The notes beneath the pieces were generated by a model. The model was not told the DNA's origin, searched no databases, and saw only the letters and a list, made by a program, of their open reading frames with translations. The position numbers and the translations under genes are program-made. Below are positions 1 through 9,288 of a stretch of 24,481 nt of DNA, piece by piece; the stretch's first letter is position 1; every line of letters starts with the position of its first letter. The stretch comes from a virus: IMG/VR virus record IMGVR_UViG_3300028384_000141, positions 1 to 24,481 of that record. One strand, given 5' to 3'.

Positions 1-206
1 CAAACAGACGCAAGGCCGTAACGTAAAACCCTTCCCGCCTTTATAAGGAATAGACTGGTCATTCATCGTTAAAGGATATTCAATCGGATGGAATGCTAAT
101 AAATACAAGGGTTTAGCGCATGGTGTGGCGTGGTGCGTGGCGATAAGGTTCGGTAAAATTAGGGAAAGTACCTATCCTGGTTAGGGTTTGTTCTAAGGTA
201 CAGGGT

Positions 207-224
207 ACCCCTAAGGGGGTTTTT
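207..224 (+). terminator. Candidate short plus-strand terminator
   Basis: ACCCC (207-211) and GGGGT (216-220) can form a 5-bp stem with a TAAG loop, and a T run continues to 224. The T run is on the plus strand only, opposite to every gene here, so it would stop transcripts entering from the left rather than the late transcript. The stem is short, and the overlapping palindrome GGGTACCC (203-210) offers an alternative fold. Low confidence. Confidence 0.3.
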
Positions 225-240
225 GGCGACACACCCTTAC

Positions 241-268
241 GTTATACCCTCTCAGATTTTTCTGTGAA
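241..268 (-). promoter_or_regulatory. Candidate sigma-70 promoter reading off the left edge
   Basis: On the minus strand a -35 box TTCACA (268-263) matches five of six consensus positions. It is followed by a 16-bp spacer and a -10 box TATAAC (246-241), also five of six. Transcription would start near 234 and run leftward out of the window. In T7-like phages, host-RNA-polymerase promoters lie just inside the terminal repeat and drive the early genes, so position and orientation fit an early promoter. No start site can be proven from sequence. Confidence 0.5.
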
Positions 269-316
269 AATAAGCTTGGGTTATTAGGTCTTTAACACTA
301 ATGCTCTCACGTCTGT

Positions 317-395
317 ACGCTAAACAAACGTTACAGTACGTTACAGTACGTTACAGTACGTTACAGTACGTTACTAACGCTATACAAACGTTACA
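317..395. repeat. Four-copy decamer array between two 19-bp repeats
   Basis: Four perfect tandem copies of TTACAGTACG occupy 331-370, and a partial TTACTAACG follows. The array is bracketed by ACGCTAAACAAACGTTACA (317-335) and ACGCTATACAAACGTTACA (377-395), which differ at one base and start exactly 60 bases apart. The 10-bp period would put each GTAC core on the same face of the helix. T7 carries arrays of short tandem repeats beside its terminal repeats; this array lies in the comparable place. It could also bind a replication or packaging protein. Confidence 0.85.
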
Positions 396-419
396 CTAAC
401 GCTTAACACTCCCTAAGTA

Positions 420-503
420 CCCTTTCACACATACGTTAAAGCTTATGTTAAACGTAATCTTAAACAATTCTTAAAGTATATTCTTAAAGTATATGTGAAA
501 GGG
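420..503. repeat. Imperfect inverted repeat with phased TTAAA motifs
   Basis: Arm 420-434 pairs with 489-503 at 14 of 15 positions (430/493 is the mismatch). After a mismatch at 435/488, bases 436-439 pair with 484-487, giving a stem of about 20 bp. The arms and loop carry TTAAA at 436, 448, 460, 471 and 484, roughly one helical turn apart, and the 13-mer TTCTTAAAGTATA is tandemly duplicated at 468-480 and 481-493. The structure lies about 50 bases downstream of the terminase stop and has no T run, so it does not look like a simple terminator. A role in terminal-repeat formation or as an A/T-rich origin is inference. Confidence 0.75.
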
Positions 504-552
504 GGGGGAGGGGGTTTTGCTTTCCCCATTGTGTGACAGTTAAAAAAGTCCT

Positions 553-2244
553 TTAAAACCAAGTACTTGCCTTACGTCCAGATTGACCTGCAAGTACATT
601 AATTCCACTTACAAACTTTTCTAACTCATCGTCCAGAAGTTGTTGTTTTCGTTGACGAATTTCCTTGTCAGCATCTGCTGCCATCTGTTCTACCCAGTAG
701 GCACACGCCATAGCTAAGACATCAAGACGGTCATCATGTGCTAAAGCCCCTCTGTCCCGTGTTATACGGGTCATTTGGTAGGCTAGCATATAGCGTTGAG
801 CTTTCTCTGGAGGGAGGTCTTGAACGCTATCGAAGTCCTTTTGTAGTACTCTAGGGTCTATTACGAGCTTATGTTGGTTCATAATAGGTTCTAGGGTATC
901 GATGATACGCAGTTCCTTTTGCTTACTGTGTCTTACCTCTTCTACCGTTACGGGGTAGATACGTTGTAGATACGGCTTAAACAGTTCTGTAAACATACCA
1001 TCACCGAAGTTACTCTCGATAAGGGTTAGGTTTACCTTTTCCTTCTTAGCTAGCTTAGCTAAATGTTCTAGCACCTGTGGAGAGTATCCACCTTTGATGC
1101 CTCCTGCGTCTGTAACGTACAGGTAGCCGTTCTTCATCTTAACAACAGCGTAAGCGGTTTCGTCAGCACCACGACCAGAGGGGTCGATAGCCAGGACTGA
1201 ACCATCATACTCATCACGCCCTATAATCTCTTCTGGGGCGTAATATTTGTCACCCGCTAGTCCTACTATGGGTAGGTTGGTAACGGGCTTCATAATGCCG
1301 TATATGAGCTTCTCAGGGGCTGTTTCAGCATCACACGACATCACCATCAGGTCAGACAGCTTTAGAGGGTATCTATCGGTATCTGACAGGCTAGTGTCTA
1401 GCATGAACTGTAACGCAAAGCCTGAGCGTCCATACGATAGCTCACGCTCGATGAGGTCGTCATCGTTAAAACGTTTAGGGTCTGTAGGTCTACCAACTAA
1501 ATCAGGGTCTTCCTGTATCTCTTGGTAAATCTTATCAGCAATGCGAGTACCATAGCTTTTCTCTATGGTTTCTACAGATGGGTAACGTGCAGTCCATACA
1601 CGCATTTTGTAACCACGTTCAGTGAGTACGTTATACAAGCTCATTTCATTCTGAGGGGTACCGAGGTAAATAATCTTACCGTCTGGTTTCAGTACCGCAT
1701 CGAATTCCTTAACACTCTCTGAGAGCTTCTCACGCATCATTTGCGTCATACTATTGTTAGGTACTTCGATGTCATCAGCGATAATGATGTCTGCACGACT
1801 ACCAGTAAGCTGACCGGTGATACCCACGGACTTAACGCTTGGTGAACCTGACGCTTTAGCCGGTGCTACGTCAAACGCAATCTTAGACCATCGTTGTCCC
1901 TCTCTAGCAATCAGGTGCTGACATAGGGGTAACTCAACGATGATACGTTGGGTAAACGTACTGAAGTCATCAGCACGAGCTTTAGACGCTGAAACAACCA
2001 TGAACTTCTTGTCAGGGTCGAGTAGCAGTTGGTGTACCACATAGGCACAAGTAATGTACGACTTACCTACACCACGGAACGCCTCAATGATGGAACGTTT
2101 GGGTGCATTTTGGATAAAATCAGCAATGTCGTACTGTACGGGGGTGGGTTCAGGGAGTCCTAAATGCTTCCAGACTAGGAACATAAAGTTTCTAAAGTCG
2201 TGGAGAGGCTCAGGAAGCCCTGTAGAGGGTTTAGTATTGCTCAT
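553..2244 (-). CDS. terL: Terminase large subunit (T7 gp19-like)
   Basis: ATPase-nuclease that packages concatemeric DNA through the portal and cuts it at genome ends. At 563 residues it matches the T7 gp19 family. The ATPase half has Walker A FRGVGKS (56-62), Walker B IIIADDIE (153-160) and the coupling motif GTPQ (195-198). The RNase H-like nuclease half has AIDPSGRGAD (352-361, acidic D354 and D361), E410 in LIESNFGDG, and HDDRLD (503-508), which supplies the last metal-binding aspartates. It is the last gene before the repeat-rich left end, as gp19 is in T7. A candidate terminator separates it from the HNH gene upstream. The only Shine-Dalgarno-like element, GAGGT, is about 13 bases from the ATG, so initiation may be weak. 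Confidence 0.97.
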   Translation of the reverse strand: MSNTKPSTGLPEPLHDFRNFMFLVWKHLGLPEPTPVQYDIADFIQNAPKRSIIEAFRGVGKSYITCAYVVHQLLLDPDKKFMVVSASKARADDFSTFTQRIIVELPLCQHLIAREGQRWSKIAFDVAPAKASGSPSVKSVGITGQLTGSRADIIIADDIEVPNNSMTQMMREKLSESVKEFDAVLKPDGKIIYLGTPQNEMSLYNVLTERGYKMRVWTARYPSVETIEKSYGTRIADKIYQEIQEDPDLVGRPTDPKRFNDDDLIERELSYGRSGFALQFMLDTSLSDTDRYPLKLSDLMVMSCDAETAPEKLIYGIMKPVTNLPIVGLAGDKYYAPEEIIGRDEYDGSVLAIDPSGRGADETAYAVVKMKNGYLYVTDAGGIKGGYSPQVLEHLAKLAKKEKVNLTLIESNFGDGMFTELFKPYLQRIYPVTVEEVRHSKQKELRIIDTLEPIMNQHKLVIDPRVLQKDFDSVQDLPPEKAQRYMLAYQMTRITRDRGALAHDDRLDVLAMACAYWVEQMAADADKEIRQRKQQLLDDELEKFVSGINVLAGQSGRKASTWF

Positions 2245-2309: not shown

Positions 2310-2531
2310 TTATTTATTTCTACCTCGGTTCTTGCTTTTAGATTGGATTCTAAGGTTGCTGTATGCGTTGTTTTTAGGGTTACGGTCTTTATGGTCTATA
2401 TCCTTACCTGCTATGGCTGCTTTACCGTGCTTTTTCTGCATCTTACGTCTAGCCATAACCCGACCTGCCCTACGCTTAACCTGTTCGGGTTTACCGTGAT
2501 ACTCACGATACTCTTTTTTATAATCTCTCAC
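2310..2531 (-). CDS. Small HNH-type endonuclease-like protein
   Basis: A 73-residue, very basic protein. Its C-terminal half contains DIDHKDRNPKNN (44-55), then YSNLR (57-61) and SKNR (66-69). This is the beta-beta-alpha-metal pattern of phage HNH proteins: D-H-x-D, N-P-x-N-N, S-N-L-R. The usual final histidine appears as asparagine (N68), an HNN variant found in the family. The first 40 residues are Arg/Lys-rich and probably bind DNA. It follows PhoH by one base and precedes the terL terminator. In several tailed phages an HNH protein next to terL assists DNA cleavage during packaging; a selfish endonuclease is the alternative. The family call is firmer than the function. Confidence 0.75.
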   Translation of the reverse strand: MRDYKKEYREYHGKPEQVKRRAGRVMARRKMQKKHGKAAIAGKDIDHKDRNPKNNAYSNLRIQSKSKNRGRNK

Positions 2532-2532
2532 G

Positions 2533-3210
2533 TTAATAACCTGCTTTGTAGAACATCCTTACCATGTCGGCACAGATGTCAGAGCGAACTATGTCTTCAA
2601 GGTCAAACTCGATAACGCTAGTGTTATTCGGTTTGTAGGTTTTTATTAGATTTATGTAGTCTAGGATGGGTGTAGCTTTGTTTTTAAGGTCTGACTGTTG
2701 AGGGTCGCCCATAAAGACAAGTACGCTATTCTCACCTACCCTTGTTGAGATTGCTTTAATCTCGTCCATCGTGAGTTGCTGACATTCATCAACGAGGATG
2801 AAGGCATTGTCAAAGCTACGTCCACGAATGGTTTCTAAGGCTACTGTTTGAATACGTTCTTTAGAAACGCAATACTCATAAAAAGAAGCACCGAGCTTTT
2901 GCTTGAGGACATCTGTCATAGGAAGTGTCCACGGTTCTAGCTTTTCTTGTAGAGTGCCAGGAATAGCCCCTAATGACCGACCGGTGGGTACGTTTGCTCT
3001 TGCTAATATAATTTGGTCGATACACCCACGAACAAGCCATTGAGCTGCTTTTACGCAACAGGTGAAAGTCTTACCTGTACCTGCGTGACCGAGTACTACG
3101 AGAAGGTGATTGTGTTCTAGGTCGTGAAAAAGCTCAGCTTGAACCTGAGTCTTAGGGGCATAATCTATTTCTGGTCTTGGATGATGTTTAATTTTCAGGC
3201 TTTTACCCAT
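2533..3210 (-). CDS. phoH: PhoH-like P-loop ATPase
   Basis: A 225-residue PhoH-family nucleotide-binding protein, common in marine phages. Walker A is GHAGTGKT (41-48), Walker B is FILVDECQQ (137-145), and GDPQQSD (168-174) is the SF1-helicase-like motif III. The R-A-N-V-P-T-G-R segment near 71-78 is also typical of PhoH. It resembles the ATPase core alone, with no added PIN or KH domain. The start codon overlaps the stop of the small upstream gene by one base (TAATG), indicating coupled translation. Its phage function is not established; RNA or phosphate-stress roles are proposed for the family. Its position between the putative small terminase and terL is notable. Confidence 0.93.
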   Translation of the reverse strand: MGKSLKIKHHPRPEIDYAPKTQVQAELFHDLEHNHLLVVLGHAGTGKTFTCCVKAAQWLVRGCIDQIILARANVPTGRSLGAIPGTLQEKLEPWTLPMTDVLKQKLGASFYEYCVSKERIQTVALETIRGRSFDNAFILVDECQQLTMDEIKAISTRVGENSVLVFMGDPQQSDLKNKATPILDYINLIKTYKPNNTSVIEFDLEDIVRSDICADMVRMFYKAGY

Positions 3211-3425
3211 TAGTTAAGTTGTTCCGCTATGTCGAAGGGAAGGGACTCTAAAAGATTAGCCATAGGGTTATCGGTTGTGATAACACCCAGTGTGGCATTG
3301 TTGTCTTTGAGCATCCGTACAGCTACTGATAATTCAGCAGCCGTAGCTTCTCCACTTCTAACACGGCGTAACAATTCTTGGGCAACAGCGTTATGAAGGT
3401 CGTCAAAGACTTCTTTGTTGTCCAT
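3210..3425 (-). CDS. Putative terminase small subunit (gp18-like)
   Basis: A 71-residue acidic helical protein. The central pattern LLRRVRSGEATAAELSVA followed by RMLKDN resembles the short DNA-packaging (maturase A) proteins of T7-like and marine podoviruses, where a helix-turn-helix-like segment recognises packaging DNA. T7 gp18 (89 residues) has a comparable N-terminal helical pair and lies between holin and large terminase, which matches the order here except for the PhoH and HNH insertions. Its TAA overlaps the phoH ATG. The call rests on position and this short pattern; an unrelated small protein cannot be excluded. Confidence 0.6.
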   Translation of the reverse strand: MDNKEVFDDLHNAVAQELLRRVRSGEATAAELSVAVRMLKDNNATLGVITTDNPMANLLESLPFDIAEQLN

Positions 3426-6720: not shown

Positions 6721-9288
6721 TTAGCCTAGTAGATAGCCATCAAATTGAGTGTATGATGCGTACATATACCCTGAATTCTGTTGGTCTGCATAAAGCTCAA
6801 CGTAATCATTTGCGTTTAAACTTAGTATTGCAGAACCAGTACTATGGTCCCAACTGTCTGAGTAAGCGTGACCACCGTGTAAAAATTCAGCTTTTTTGCT
6901 GCCATTTACATAAAAGTATAATCTTCGCCAATTTGACCCCACGTTATGCAAAGAAGTAGCATTGAATATATATTTACCTGCTACGGGAGCAGTAAACCTA
7001 CTGTTAGAATTATTCCAAGAGCCGTCACCAGCAAATGAACCCATAGAGCTGCCAGTAGACCACCCTGTAATTTTAGTAGCACCGCCGCCAGCATTTATTG
7101 TGAAATCAGAAGCTAACGTAGCTCTAAAACTTGGTTGATAAGGCTTTGTGACACGACCCGCTGAGTCGATGCGCATACGTTCTGTATCTTGCGTTTCTAC
7201 ATAAACATAATCAGAAGCATTGTTACCAAAGATGCCGTTATTGCCCCAGATTACACCTTTGTCGTCTGTATCAATTCGTACATCACCACCTGCAACGGTT
7301 AATGTTGCTGATGGACTACTCGTACCAATACCAACGTTACCGCTGCTGTCGATGCGCATACGTTCTGTGTTGTTGGTATAAAATCTAGTATTACAGGCAT
7401 CTGTATTTTGAATATACAAGTCTGTGTCATGGTAAATAAACGACCTATATGAACCGTTATAACTATCTAAAGCAATTCCACCAGAACGATTAGGATAAGA
7501 TGCGCTAGTCCCCTTTAATGTAAGGCTTGGCATGCCTGCACCGATTGAAACAGCACTTGTGCCGCCAATAACTACGTTTCCACTGGAGTCAATGCGCATA
7601 CGTTCTGAGCCGTCTGTAGTAGCAGTAATATAACCACTTCCAGTATCTACAACTTCAACGGATGAATTACCTTCTGTAATTGCATCAGAAGCAATACCAC
7701 TTAGCAATCCATCAACTTCAGTCTTGGTATAATGAGTAGCCAAGGTAAACGTACCAAACGCTACCACATACAACTCATCACCTGCTGCTGCACCTGAAGC
7801 TAGAGTAATGGTAGAACCATCAGTAGCTGTGTAGTCAGAAGGGTCAAGGTGTACACCGTTAAGATATACATCAATGTAACCTGAGTCATACGCTAGGGTT
7901 GCACCATTAGCATCTGCACCAGTGAAAGCTGTTTGGCTTGCTGTAGCTACAAACTTAAAGCGAGCCGCAGTACCGTTTACAGAAGAACCTGCGTTCTGCC
8001 ATGAGCCACCGTTGTAAACCATCATCTTGTCACCAGTGGTATCAAACCAACCTACTGCATCTACGTTAGCGATAGACGCTGCGACAACATCAATCTCTGA
8101 AGTAGCTTCGTTTAAATCATTAGCTACTGTGACAACCTTAGCCACTTCTGTAGCAATGGTTTGAATGTCTGAGATGTTAGTAGCTGCCAAAGAAACGTCA
8201 GCGATGTTGTTAGCAACAGTTGTTACATTGGTATTGTTACCTGCAACAGTGTTGATGTTACCTGAGTTTGCATTGACTGCATTGATGTTGGTTTCATTAG
8301 CTTGAACTGCGTTAATGTTAGTCGCATTACCTGCAACAGCATTAACATTAGCGATGTTGCCACCAACAGCGTTTACGTTTGCAATAGCACCTGCTGTAGT
8401 GTTCACGTCAGCTACGTTGGTAGCCACGGTGTTTACATTAGCAATGCTACCTGCTGTGGTATTAACATTAGCAATGTCAGTACCAACCTTGTTTACATTC
8501 GCAATGCTATTCTCAACGGTGTTAATGTCACCGATGTTTGTAGCTACGGTGTTAACGTCTGCAATGTTAGTAGCAGTGGTGTTAACATTAGCGATGCTAT
8601 TTTCTACTGTGTTAATATCGCCAATATTAGTAGCGACAGTATTAACATCAGCGATATTTGTAGCAGTAGTGTTAACATTAGCAATAGAACCTGCAACAGT
8701 GTTTACGTTAGAGATTGCACCACCGACAGTATTTACGTTAGCGATGCTACCTGCTGTAGTGTTTACGTTAGCAATGTCGTTAGCTACGGTGTGAAGCTTG
8801 GTGGTATCGATAGCGTTAAGCTGTGCTTTATCGCTTGGAGATAGCCAAGTGTTCTCAATGTAATTCTTAGTTGCTACGTCCTGAGCGTTTACAGGGTCTG
8901 CTACGTTCTTGATAACACGGTTTGAACCGTTAACTTCACCATCAAACTTACCGTCAGCATCTAGTGAAAGAGCAGCTTCGGCTTTGTCAATCGCTTCTTG
9001 AGCAGCATGGTAAACCTGGATGTTGGAGTTATCCAAATCCTCTTCGGTCAACACAGAACCAGAAGCAAAGTCAACAGCACGGTTTGTGAGGTCAGTTGTA
9101 CGCTCGATGCGTACAGTAGCCCCGCTAGTAGGGGTTGGAGTTACATTAACAGTGTTAGCAGAAGTAAACGTGAATGTTGCTGCTGTACCATCCACGAATA
9201 CTTCGATTTCACTTTGGTTAATGTACTCAAAAGGAATATTGAAAGTAGCACTACCACCGGCAGTGTACTCTATATAACTATAAGCCAT
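6721..9288 (-). CDS. Tail fibre, gp17-type anchor with C1q-like tip
   Basis: An 855-residue receptor-binding fibre. Residues 1-110 match the T7 gp17 N-terminal tail-attachment domain (MAYSYIEYTAGGSATFNIPF start, RIERTTDLTNRAVDF, GSVLTEEDL). Residues 171-390 are a decapeptide repeat stalk. A beta module follows at about 425-520 (WFDTTGDKMMVYNGGSWQ, then YLNGVHLDPSDY). Three copies of ERMRIDSSGNV-type motifs lie near 563, 644 and 706. The last 140 residues resemble a C1q/TNF-like jelly roll (FTAPVAGKYIFNATS, then FYVNGS, ending SYTQFDGYLLG), a common trimeric tip in marine phage fibres. It follows the gp16-like gene by three bases, as in T7. No C-terminal self-cleaving chaperone is visible. Confidence 0.93.
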   Translation of the reverse strand: MAYSYIEYTAGGSATFNIPFEYINQSEIEVFVDGTAATFTFTSANTVNVTPTPTSGATVRIERTTDLTNRAVDFASGSVLTEEDLDNSNIQVYHAAQEAIDKAEAALSLDADGKFDGEVNGSNRVIKNVADPVNAQDVATKNYIENTWLSPSDKAQLNAIDTTKLHTVANDIANVNTTAGSIANVNTVGGAISNVNTVAGSIANVNTTATNIADVNTVATNIGDINTVENSIANVNTTATNIADVNTVATNIGDINTVENSIANVNKVGTDIANVNTTAGSIANVNTVATNVADVNTTAGAIANVNAVGGNIANVNAVAGNATNINAVQANETNINAVNANSGNINTVAGNNTNVTTVANNIADVSLAATNISDIQTIATEVAKVVTVANDLNEATSEIDVVAASIANVDAVGWFDTTGDKMMVYNGGSWQNAGSSVNGTAARFKFVATASQTAFTGADANGATLAYDSGYIDVYLNGVHLDPSDYTATDGSTITLASGAAAGDELYVVAFGTFTLATHYTKTEVDGLLSGIASDAITEGNSSVEVVDTGSGYITATTDGSERMRIDSSGNVVIGGTSAVSIGAGMPSLTLKGTSASYPNRSGGIALDSYNGSYRSFIYHDTDLYIQNTDACNTRFYTNNTERMRIDSSGNVGIGTSSPSATLTVAGGDVRIDTDDKGVIWGNNGIFGNNASDYVYVETQDTERMRIDSAGRVTKPYQPSFRATLASDFTINAGGGATKITGWSTGSSMGSFAGDGSWNNSNSRFTAPVAGKYIFNATSLHNVGSNWRRLYFYVNGSKKAEFLHGGHAYSDSWDHSTGSAILSLNANDYVELYADQQNSGYMYASYTQFDGYLLG
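8119..8778 (-). repeat. 22-unit decapeptide (30-bp) repeat in the fibre stalk
   Basis: Residues 171-390 of the fibre can be divided without gaps into 22 decapeptides of the form x-I-A-N/D-V/I-N-T-V/T-A-x. Units 4-6 and 7-9 are identical in protein over 30 residues but differ at many synonymous sites in DNA. The units become degenerate toward the C-terminal end (for example NETNINAVNA, then EVAKVVTVAN). Regular isoleucine/valine spacing suggests a trimeric fibrous stalk, either a coiled coil or a triple beta-helix. Repeat number probably sets fibre length. Confidence 0.9.

Follow-up and report, generated by a model that had tools for sequence, protein, structure and literature searches.

The closest described counterparts of the locus analysed here are the short-repeat arrays of phages T7 and T3 (SRL and SRR), which occupy the gap from terL to the terminal repeat and lie immediately beyond the conserved AAAAATCTGA cut motif. 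The array reported below has the same placement, which we take to match that of the right-hand short repeats (SRR) of T7. Arrays of this type are a known but poorly understood element, and no account of the function of the T7 SRL or SRR turned up in the literature searched. Short repeated sites near the packaging cut are also present in the R sites of lambda cosB and in SPP1 pac, and these sites are conserved and protein-specific. In T7, the 160-bp terminal repeat starts straight after AAAAATCTGAGTGACTA and opens with TCTCACAG. The terminal repeat of T3 starts straight after AAAAATCTGAATGGGTA and opens with TCTCATAG, and that of the Pelagibacter phage HTVC019P, an exact 162-bp repeat, starts straight after GAAAATTATGAGGGGGTA and opens with TCGTATTA. 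The T3 end TCTCATAGTTCAAGAACCCA was placed by read pile-up (PMC3896407). In the Pseudomonas phage LUZ100 the recorded repeat start is about 14 bp further in. A paper on a T3/T7 hybrid cites polymerase-lysozyme pausing at the concatemer junction as the step recruiting gp18 and gp19 (PMC3276506).

The window, i.e., the whole 24,481-base stretch of DNA that was analysed, is a linear viral record and contains the late half of a genome of T7-like type, with capsid and portal genes and, according to family matches, a T7-type packaging pair of gp19-type TerL and gp18-type TerS. The source phage is T7-like and marine, and the earlier description of the locus as non-coding DNA of a T7-like phage was borne out. 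The packaging genes are as follows:

553 to 2244, minus strand: terL, T7 gp19 type (phrog_38, E=3.5e-121; PF22530)
3210 to 3425, minus strand: terS, T7 gp18 type, 71 aa (PF11123 DNA_Packaging_2, E=3.9e-14; phrog_891)

A search for relatives of the 71-aa TerS with a solved structure found none. A small HNH endonuclease ORF (PF13392, window 2310-2531) sits between a PhoH-like gene and terL, and a putative tail fibre gene (6721-9288) contains degenerate 30-bp coding repeats (IANVNTVATNIGDINTV...) at window 8311-8792.

Downstream of terL, the minus strand carries the word (C)AAAAATCTGAG..GGTA/TA at window 261-243, the slash marking the predicted cut. The word is common to related loci, being present in 56 of the 65 with usable sequence, and CCCCC follows it there after about 25 bp. 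Three features were placed around this boundary:

1 to 244, minus strand: right-hand direct terminal repeat copy (predicted), which opens with TAACGTAAGG at 244 and extends past the contig end (boundary homology with T7, T3 and HTVC019P)
205 to 219, strand unassigned: box rich in C and G, ACCCCTAAGGGGG, a short way into the terminal repeat (CCCC(C) kept in relatives and T7)
245 to 261, minus strand: conserved terminus motif AAAAATCTGAGAGGGTA, directly outside the predicted cut (56/65 relatives; beside the terminal repeats of T7, T3 and HTVC019P)

Because the motif matches the terminal-repeat starts of T7, T3 and HTVC019P, the terminase cut is predicted, almost certainly correctly, between positions 245 and 244. 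The first-pass annotation had assigned the repeats to a genome end, and the homology agrees, placing the array 73-151 bp outside the predicted terminal repeat, between the repeat and terL. The boundary motif is present together with one predicted terminal-repeat copy, and the contig ends inside the predicted repeat. Contig ends were also used as a proxy for physical ends, and the contig tails share no common stop point.

A strict version of the motif occurs once in each of eight long records. Eight others do not have it, and among these some contain a variant or are missing the stretch. The idea that the motif is a promoter for a phage RNA polymerase was rejected on the basis of its copy number, at most one per long record. 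In about 34 relatives a ATCTGTTTT-like sequence lies 186-276 bp after the cut; this sequence is the class II termination/pause sequence of T7 RNA polymerase, known at the T7 concatemer junction (PMC11617373). The cut motif is split by the ends of the deposited linear record of roseophage CRP-227 (OR420746.1), which ends AAAAAAATCTGA and starts GGTGGTATACG; its opening point is about 7 bases away from where the physical end is predicted. Two related contigs, L002 and L003, are near-identical to about 40 bp past the cut and unrelated beyond; L002 runs on after the cut motif into bacterial-looking sequence and is perhaps a chimeric assembly.

The array itself consists of decamers:

314 to 393, minus strand: eight decamers in exact 10-bp register, TAACGTTTGT, ATAGCGTTAG, TAACGTACTG four times, TAACGTTTGT and TTAGCGTACA (repeat analysis)

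The units start on the minus strand at 393, 383, 373, 363, 353, 343, 333 and 323. Four exact copies of TTACAGTACG in exact 10-bp phase (331-340, 341-350, 351-360 and 361-370), as noticed earlier, were confirmed, and the exact period of 10 spans 328-374 (4.7 copies, 100% match). Among lags of 5-30 over positions 1-552, lag 10 gives the longest exact self-match, 37 bases, whereas the highest value reached among 300 dinucleotide shuffles was 12. The first-pass annotation had further described the array as bracketed by two 19-bp repeats. These 19-mers, ACGCTAAACAAACGTTACA (317-335) and ACGCTATACAAACGTTACA (377-395), do have a single mismatch, and their starts are 60 bp from each other. However, they are not independent flanks, since each is made of two diverged decamers (TAACGTTTGT + WTAGCGT...) in the register of the array, and the 60-bp spacing results from six units of ten in one register. 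The array is non-coding, terL ending at 553, and an Rfam search gave no match.

Two further features lie on the terL side of the decamers:

436 to 494, minus strand: second, looser short-repeat array of TTTAA/CTTTAAG units at 11-13-bp spacing (repeat analysis)
405 to 518, minus strand: imperfect inverted repeat around the TTTAA array, with arms CCCTTTCACATATAC and GTATGTGTGAAAGGG (z = -3.75 for the RNA fold)

The TTTAA units start at 488, 475, 464, 452 and 440, with gaps of 13, 11, 12 and 12 bp. They are of the same type as CTTAAAG and CTTAAGG, which, together with TCTTAGG, are the common array words in relatives and are close to CCTAAAG of T7. The T7 short repeats had been named as the nearest known parallel with an unrelated sequence; the parallel is stronger than stated, and the lack of sequence relation was overstated, because the gap also holds these T7-resembling units. 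The inverted repeat is possibly a late terminator or processing site, and it is partly retained in L001 and L002.

Searches of viral and bacterial contig collections with the exact array, the 19-bp flank and the terminal-repeat-start patterns found no other carrier. The terL-side flank patterns matched only L001, the one near-identical relative (97.9%), whose contig stops at the array edge, which may be an assembly break at the repeat. The nearest relatives spanning the array site, L002 and L003 (86-87% TerL identity), keep synteny and the cut motif, whereas an ORF of about 84 codons replaces the array. Coding sequence of HTVC019P reaches within about 20 bp of the cut, and that of CRP-114 also comes close to it. 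Since L002, L003, HTVC019P and CRP-114 have coding sequence there, an array on the right side is dispensable. As judged from these sequence comparisons, the decamer is private to its lineage, and the T7-like junction in general does not require it. The decamers had been proposed as a recognition site for terminase; they are not a conserved one, because L002 and L003 retain synteny and the cut motif without them, and the conserved part is the neighbouring AAAAATCTGAG..GGTA. Syntenic relatives lacking the array had been named as evidence that would speak against the proposal, and they were found in part, in that L002 and L003 have the small ORF at the site.

Comparisons among close relatives showed how such arrays change. 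L019 and L020 differ by exactly one 11-bp unit, L011, L014 and L015 (terL 99.6% identical) by 10, 11, 34 and 44 bp, and L033 and L035 differ from L039 by 21-23 bp, with no terL indels in any of these sets; the remaining indels in the comparison are not unit-sized. The arrays of close relatives therefore change largely in steps of whole units, each about 10-11 bp long, that are gained or lost, and because of this turnover the likeliest reading of the four exact copies is a recent expansion within an older decamer array. In L019 and L020 the non-coding junction from terL to the cut is 99.3% identical, compared with only 89.3% at the terL end, a contrast suggesting recombination that swapped the terminus.

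Although the unit sequence differs among relatives, a spacing near one helix turn recurs. Pooled right-side stretches (n=32, dereplicated) have an excess of self-matches at lags 9-12, with harmonics at 20-22. In 27 dereplicated relatives, counted with the source window left out, 756 self-matches were observed at lags 9-13 against 217 expected (3.5-fold, z 15.6). Other intergenic DNA of annotated relatives gave 209 against 109 expected at the same lags (z 4.3), and as this control is small (4.1 kb) and itself modestly in excess, the periodicity is a matter of degree. The terL end, used as a second control, did not peak at 10-12, and the lags that stand out most there (9, 21 and 27) are all multiples of 3. 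The left (SRL) side of the terminal repeat is similarly enriched, and an SRL partner array is present in T7 and several relatives. Individually, significance at p<0.05 (uncorrected and not fully independent) was reached by 24 of the 46 stretches on the right and 14 of the 39 on the left, and T7, T3 and LUZ100 reached it on both sides.

Several explanations of the decamers were considered. A serious rival is that they are a functionless neutral spacer, the non-coding gap growing and shrinking by slippage or recombination as the repeat is duplicated. The unconserved unit sequence, the lack of an array in the nearest spanning relatives and the variation in copy number among near-identical relatives all fit this explanation. 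However, slippage alone predicts neither a common period close to a helix turn to the left and right of the repeat in many distinct lineages nor the many indels of 10-11 bp or multiples thereof; we regard the neutral spacer as possible but somewhat doubtful. An intrinsic phased DNA bend or a folded single-strand structure could also account for a 10-bp period, but the array shows no more wedge-model curvature than shuffles do (p = 0.30), the relatives' arrays likewise show no excess (median p 0.41), and the single-strand DNA fold is weaker than that of shuffles (z +1.48), making this explanation very improbable.

The remaining two explanations assign a sequence-specific role to the unit. If the decamer were a site for the phage's own TerS, with unit and TerS coevolving, the gp18-type terS gene 1 kb from terL and the recurrence of TAACGTA at the predicted terminal-repeat start (TATAACGTAAGG) would be accounted for. 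However, the arrays of L005 and L006 have no such word in common with their own cut sites, L002 and L003 lack an array, and the conserved element is AAAAATCTGAG..GGTA rather than the decamer, so that a coevolving TerS site is unlikely. A replication or transcription element analogous to T7 phiOR or a late origin might be expected at this place, as T7 and T3 carry phiOR between terL and the terminal repeat and CTATAGTATATAG-like words occur just after terL in related contigs. No such promoter-like word was found in the gap of the source phage, though, the decamer is unlike it, and scans for host-type sigma-70 promoters and terminators gave no match; we consider such an element quite unlikely.

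We favour the reading that the decamers form a lineage-private array of the T7 SRR type, made by unit slippage and having a putative docking role in packaging, and give it a probability of about 55% as a whole. Its parts differ in strength. The array is very probably the SRR equivalent of a T7-like concatemer junction, and its origin by slippage or recombination is equally well supported, whereas a docking or spacing function in packaging is put forward tentatively. Under the favoured reading, terminase would cut the concatemer at the position predicted by homology, leaving the array outside the cut. Spacing of about one helix turn would set the units on roughly one face of the DNA, and because the units would share that face, the array's most likely role would be that of a multivalent platform of low specificity on which the packaging machinery is loaded or spaced during junction processing. 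Candidate users of the platform are TerS and a complex of RNA polymerase, lysozyme and terminase. A more speculative and rather unlikely extension is that T7-like phages in general are under selection to have helix-phased short-repeat arrays next to the terminal repeat, in which phase matters and sequence does not; fast unit turnover would then give every lineage a junction signature of its own, perhaps suited to the packaging proteins of that lineage.

The main value of the locus lies in the wider pattern across relatives. As a single conserved word, AAAAATCTGAG..GGTA makes it possible to predict from sequence where many T7-like genomes from metagenomes physically end, and the presence of arrays with a helix-turn period in many lineages makes the role of the T7 SRL and SRR testable with phase-shift mutants.

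Compared with known systems, the decamer array belongs to the T7 SRR class as an ordinary member that evolves fast and looks unusual. Terminase pac and cos sites such as those of SPP1 and lambda cosB are conserved and protein-specific, whereas the decamer is confined to one lineage and has a putative role. HTVC019P, CRP-227 and LUZ100 also have phased arrays of 11-12 bp next to the terminal repeat, with other unit sequences; those of HTVC019P and CRP-227 are chiefly on the left, or early, side, and on the right coding sequence comes near the cut. A CCTAAAG-like unit, a feature of the T7 and T3 arrays, is not found in the decamer, and the TTTAA/CTTTAAG units at 436-494 are of a related type. 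However, such a unit does not define the class, because unit sequence varies among relatives, and membership here is by position and architecture, not by sequence. The arrays of T7 and T3 likewise consist of many short units at about one helix turn (lags 12-13 in both), but their units are loosely spaced CCTAAAG-type heptamers, whereas here the unit TAACGTACTG keeps an exact 10-bp phase and occurs in four perfect copies.
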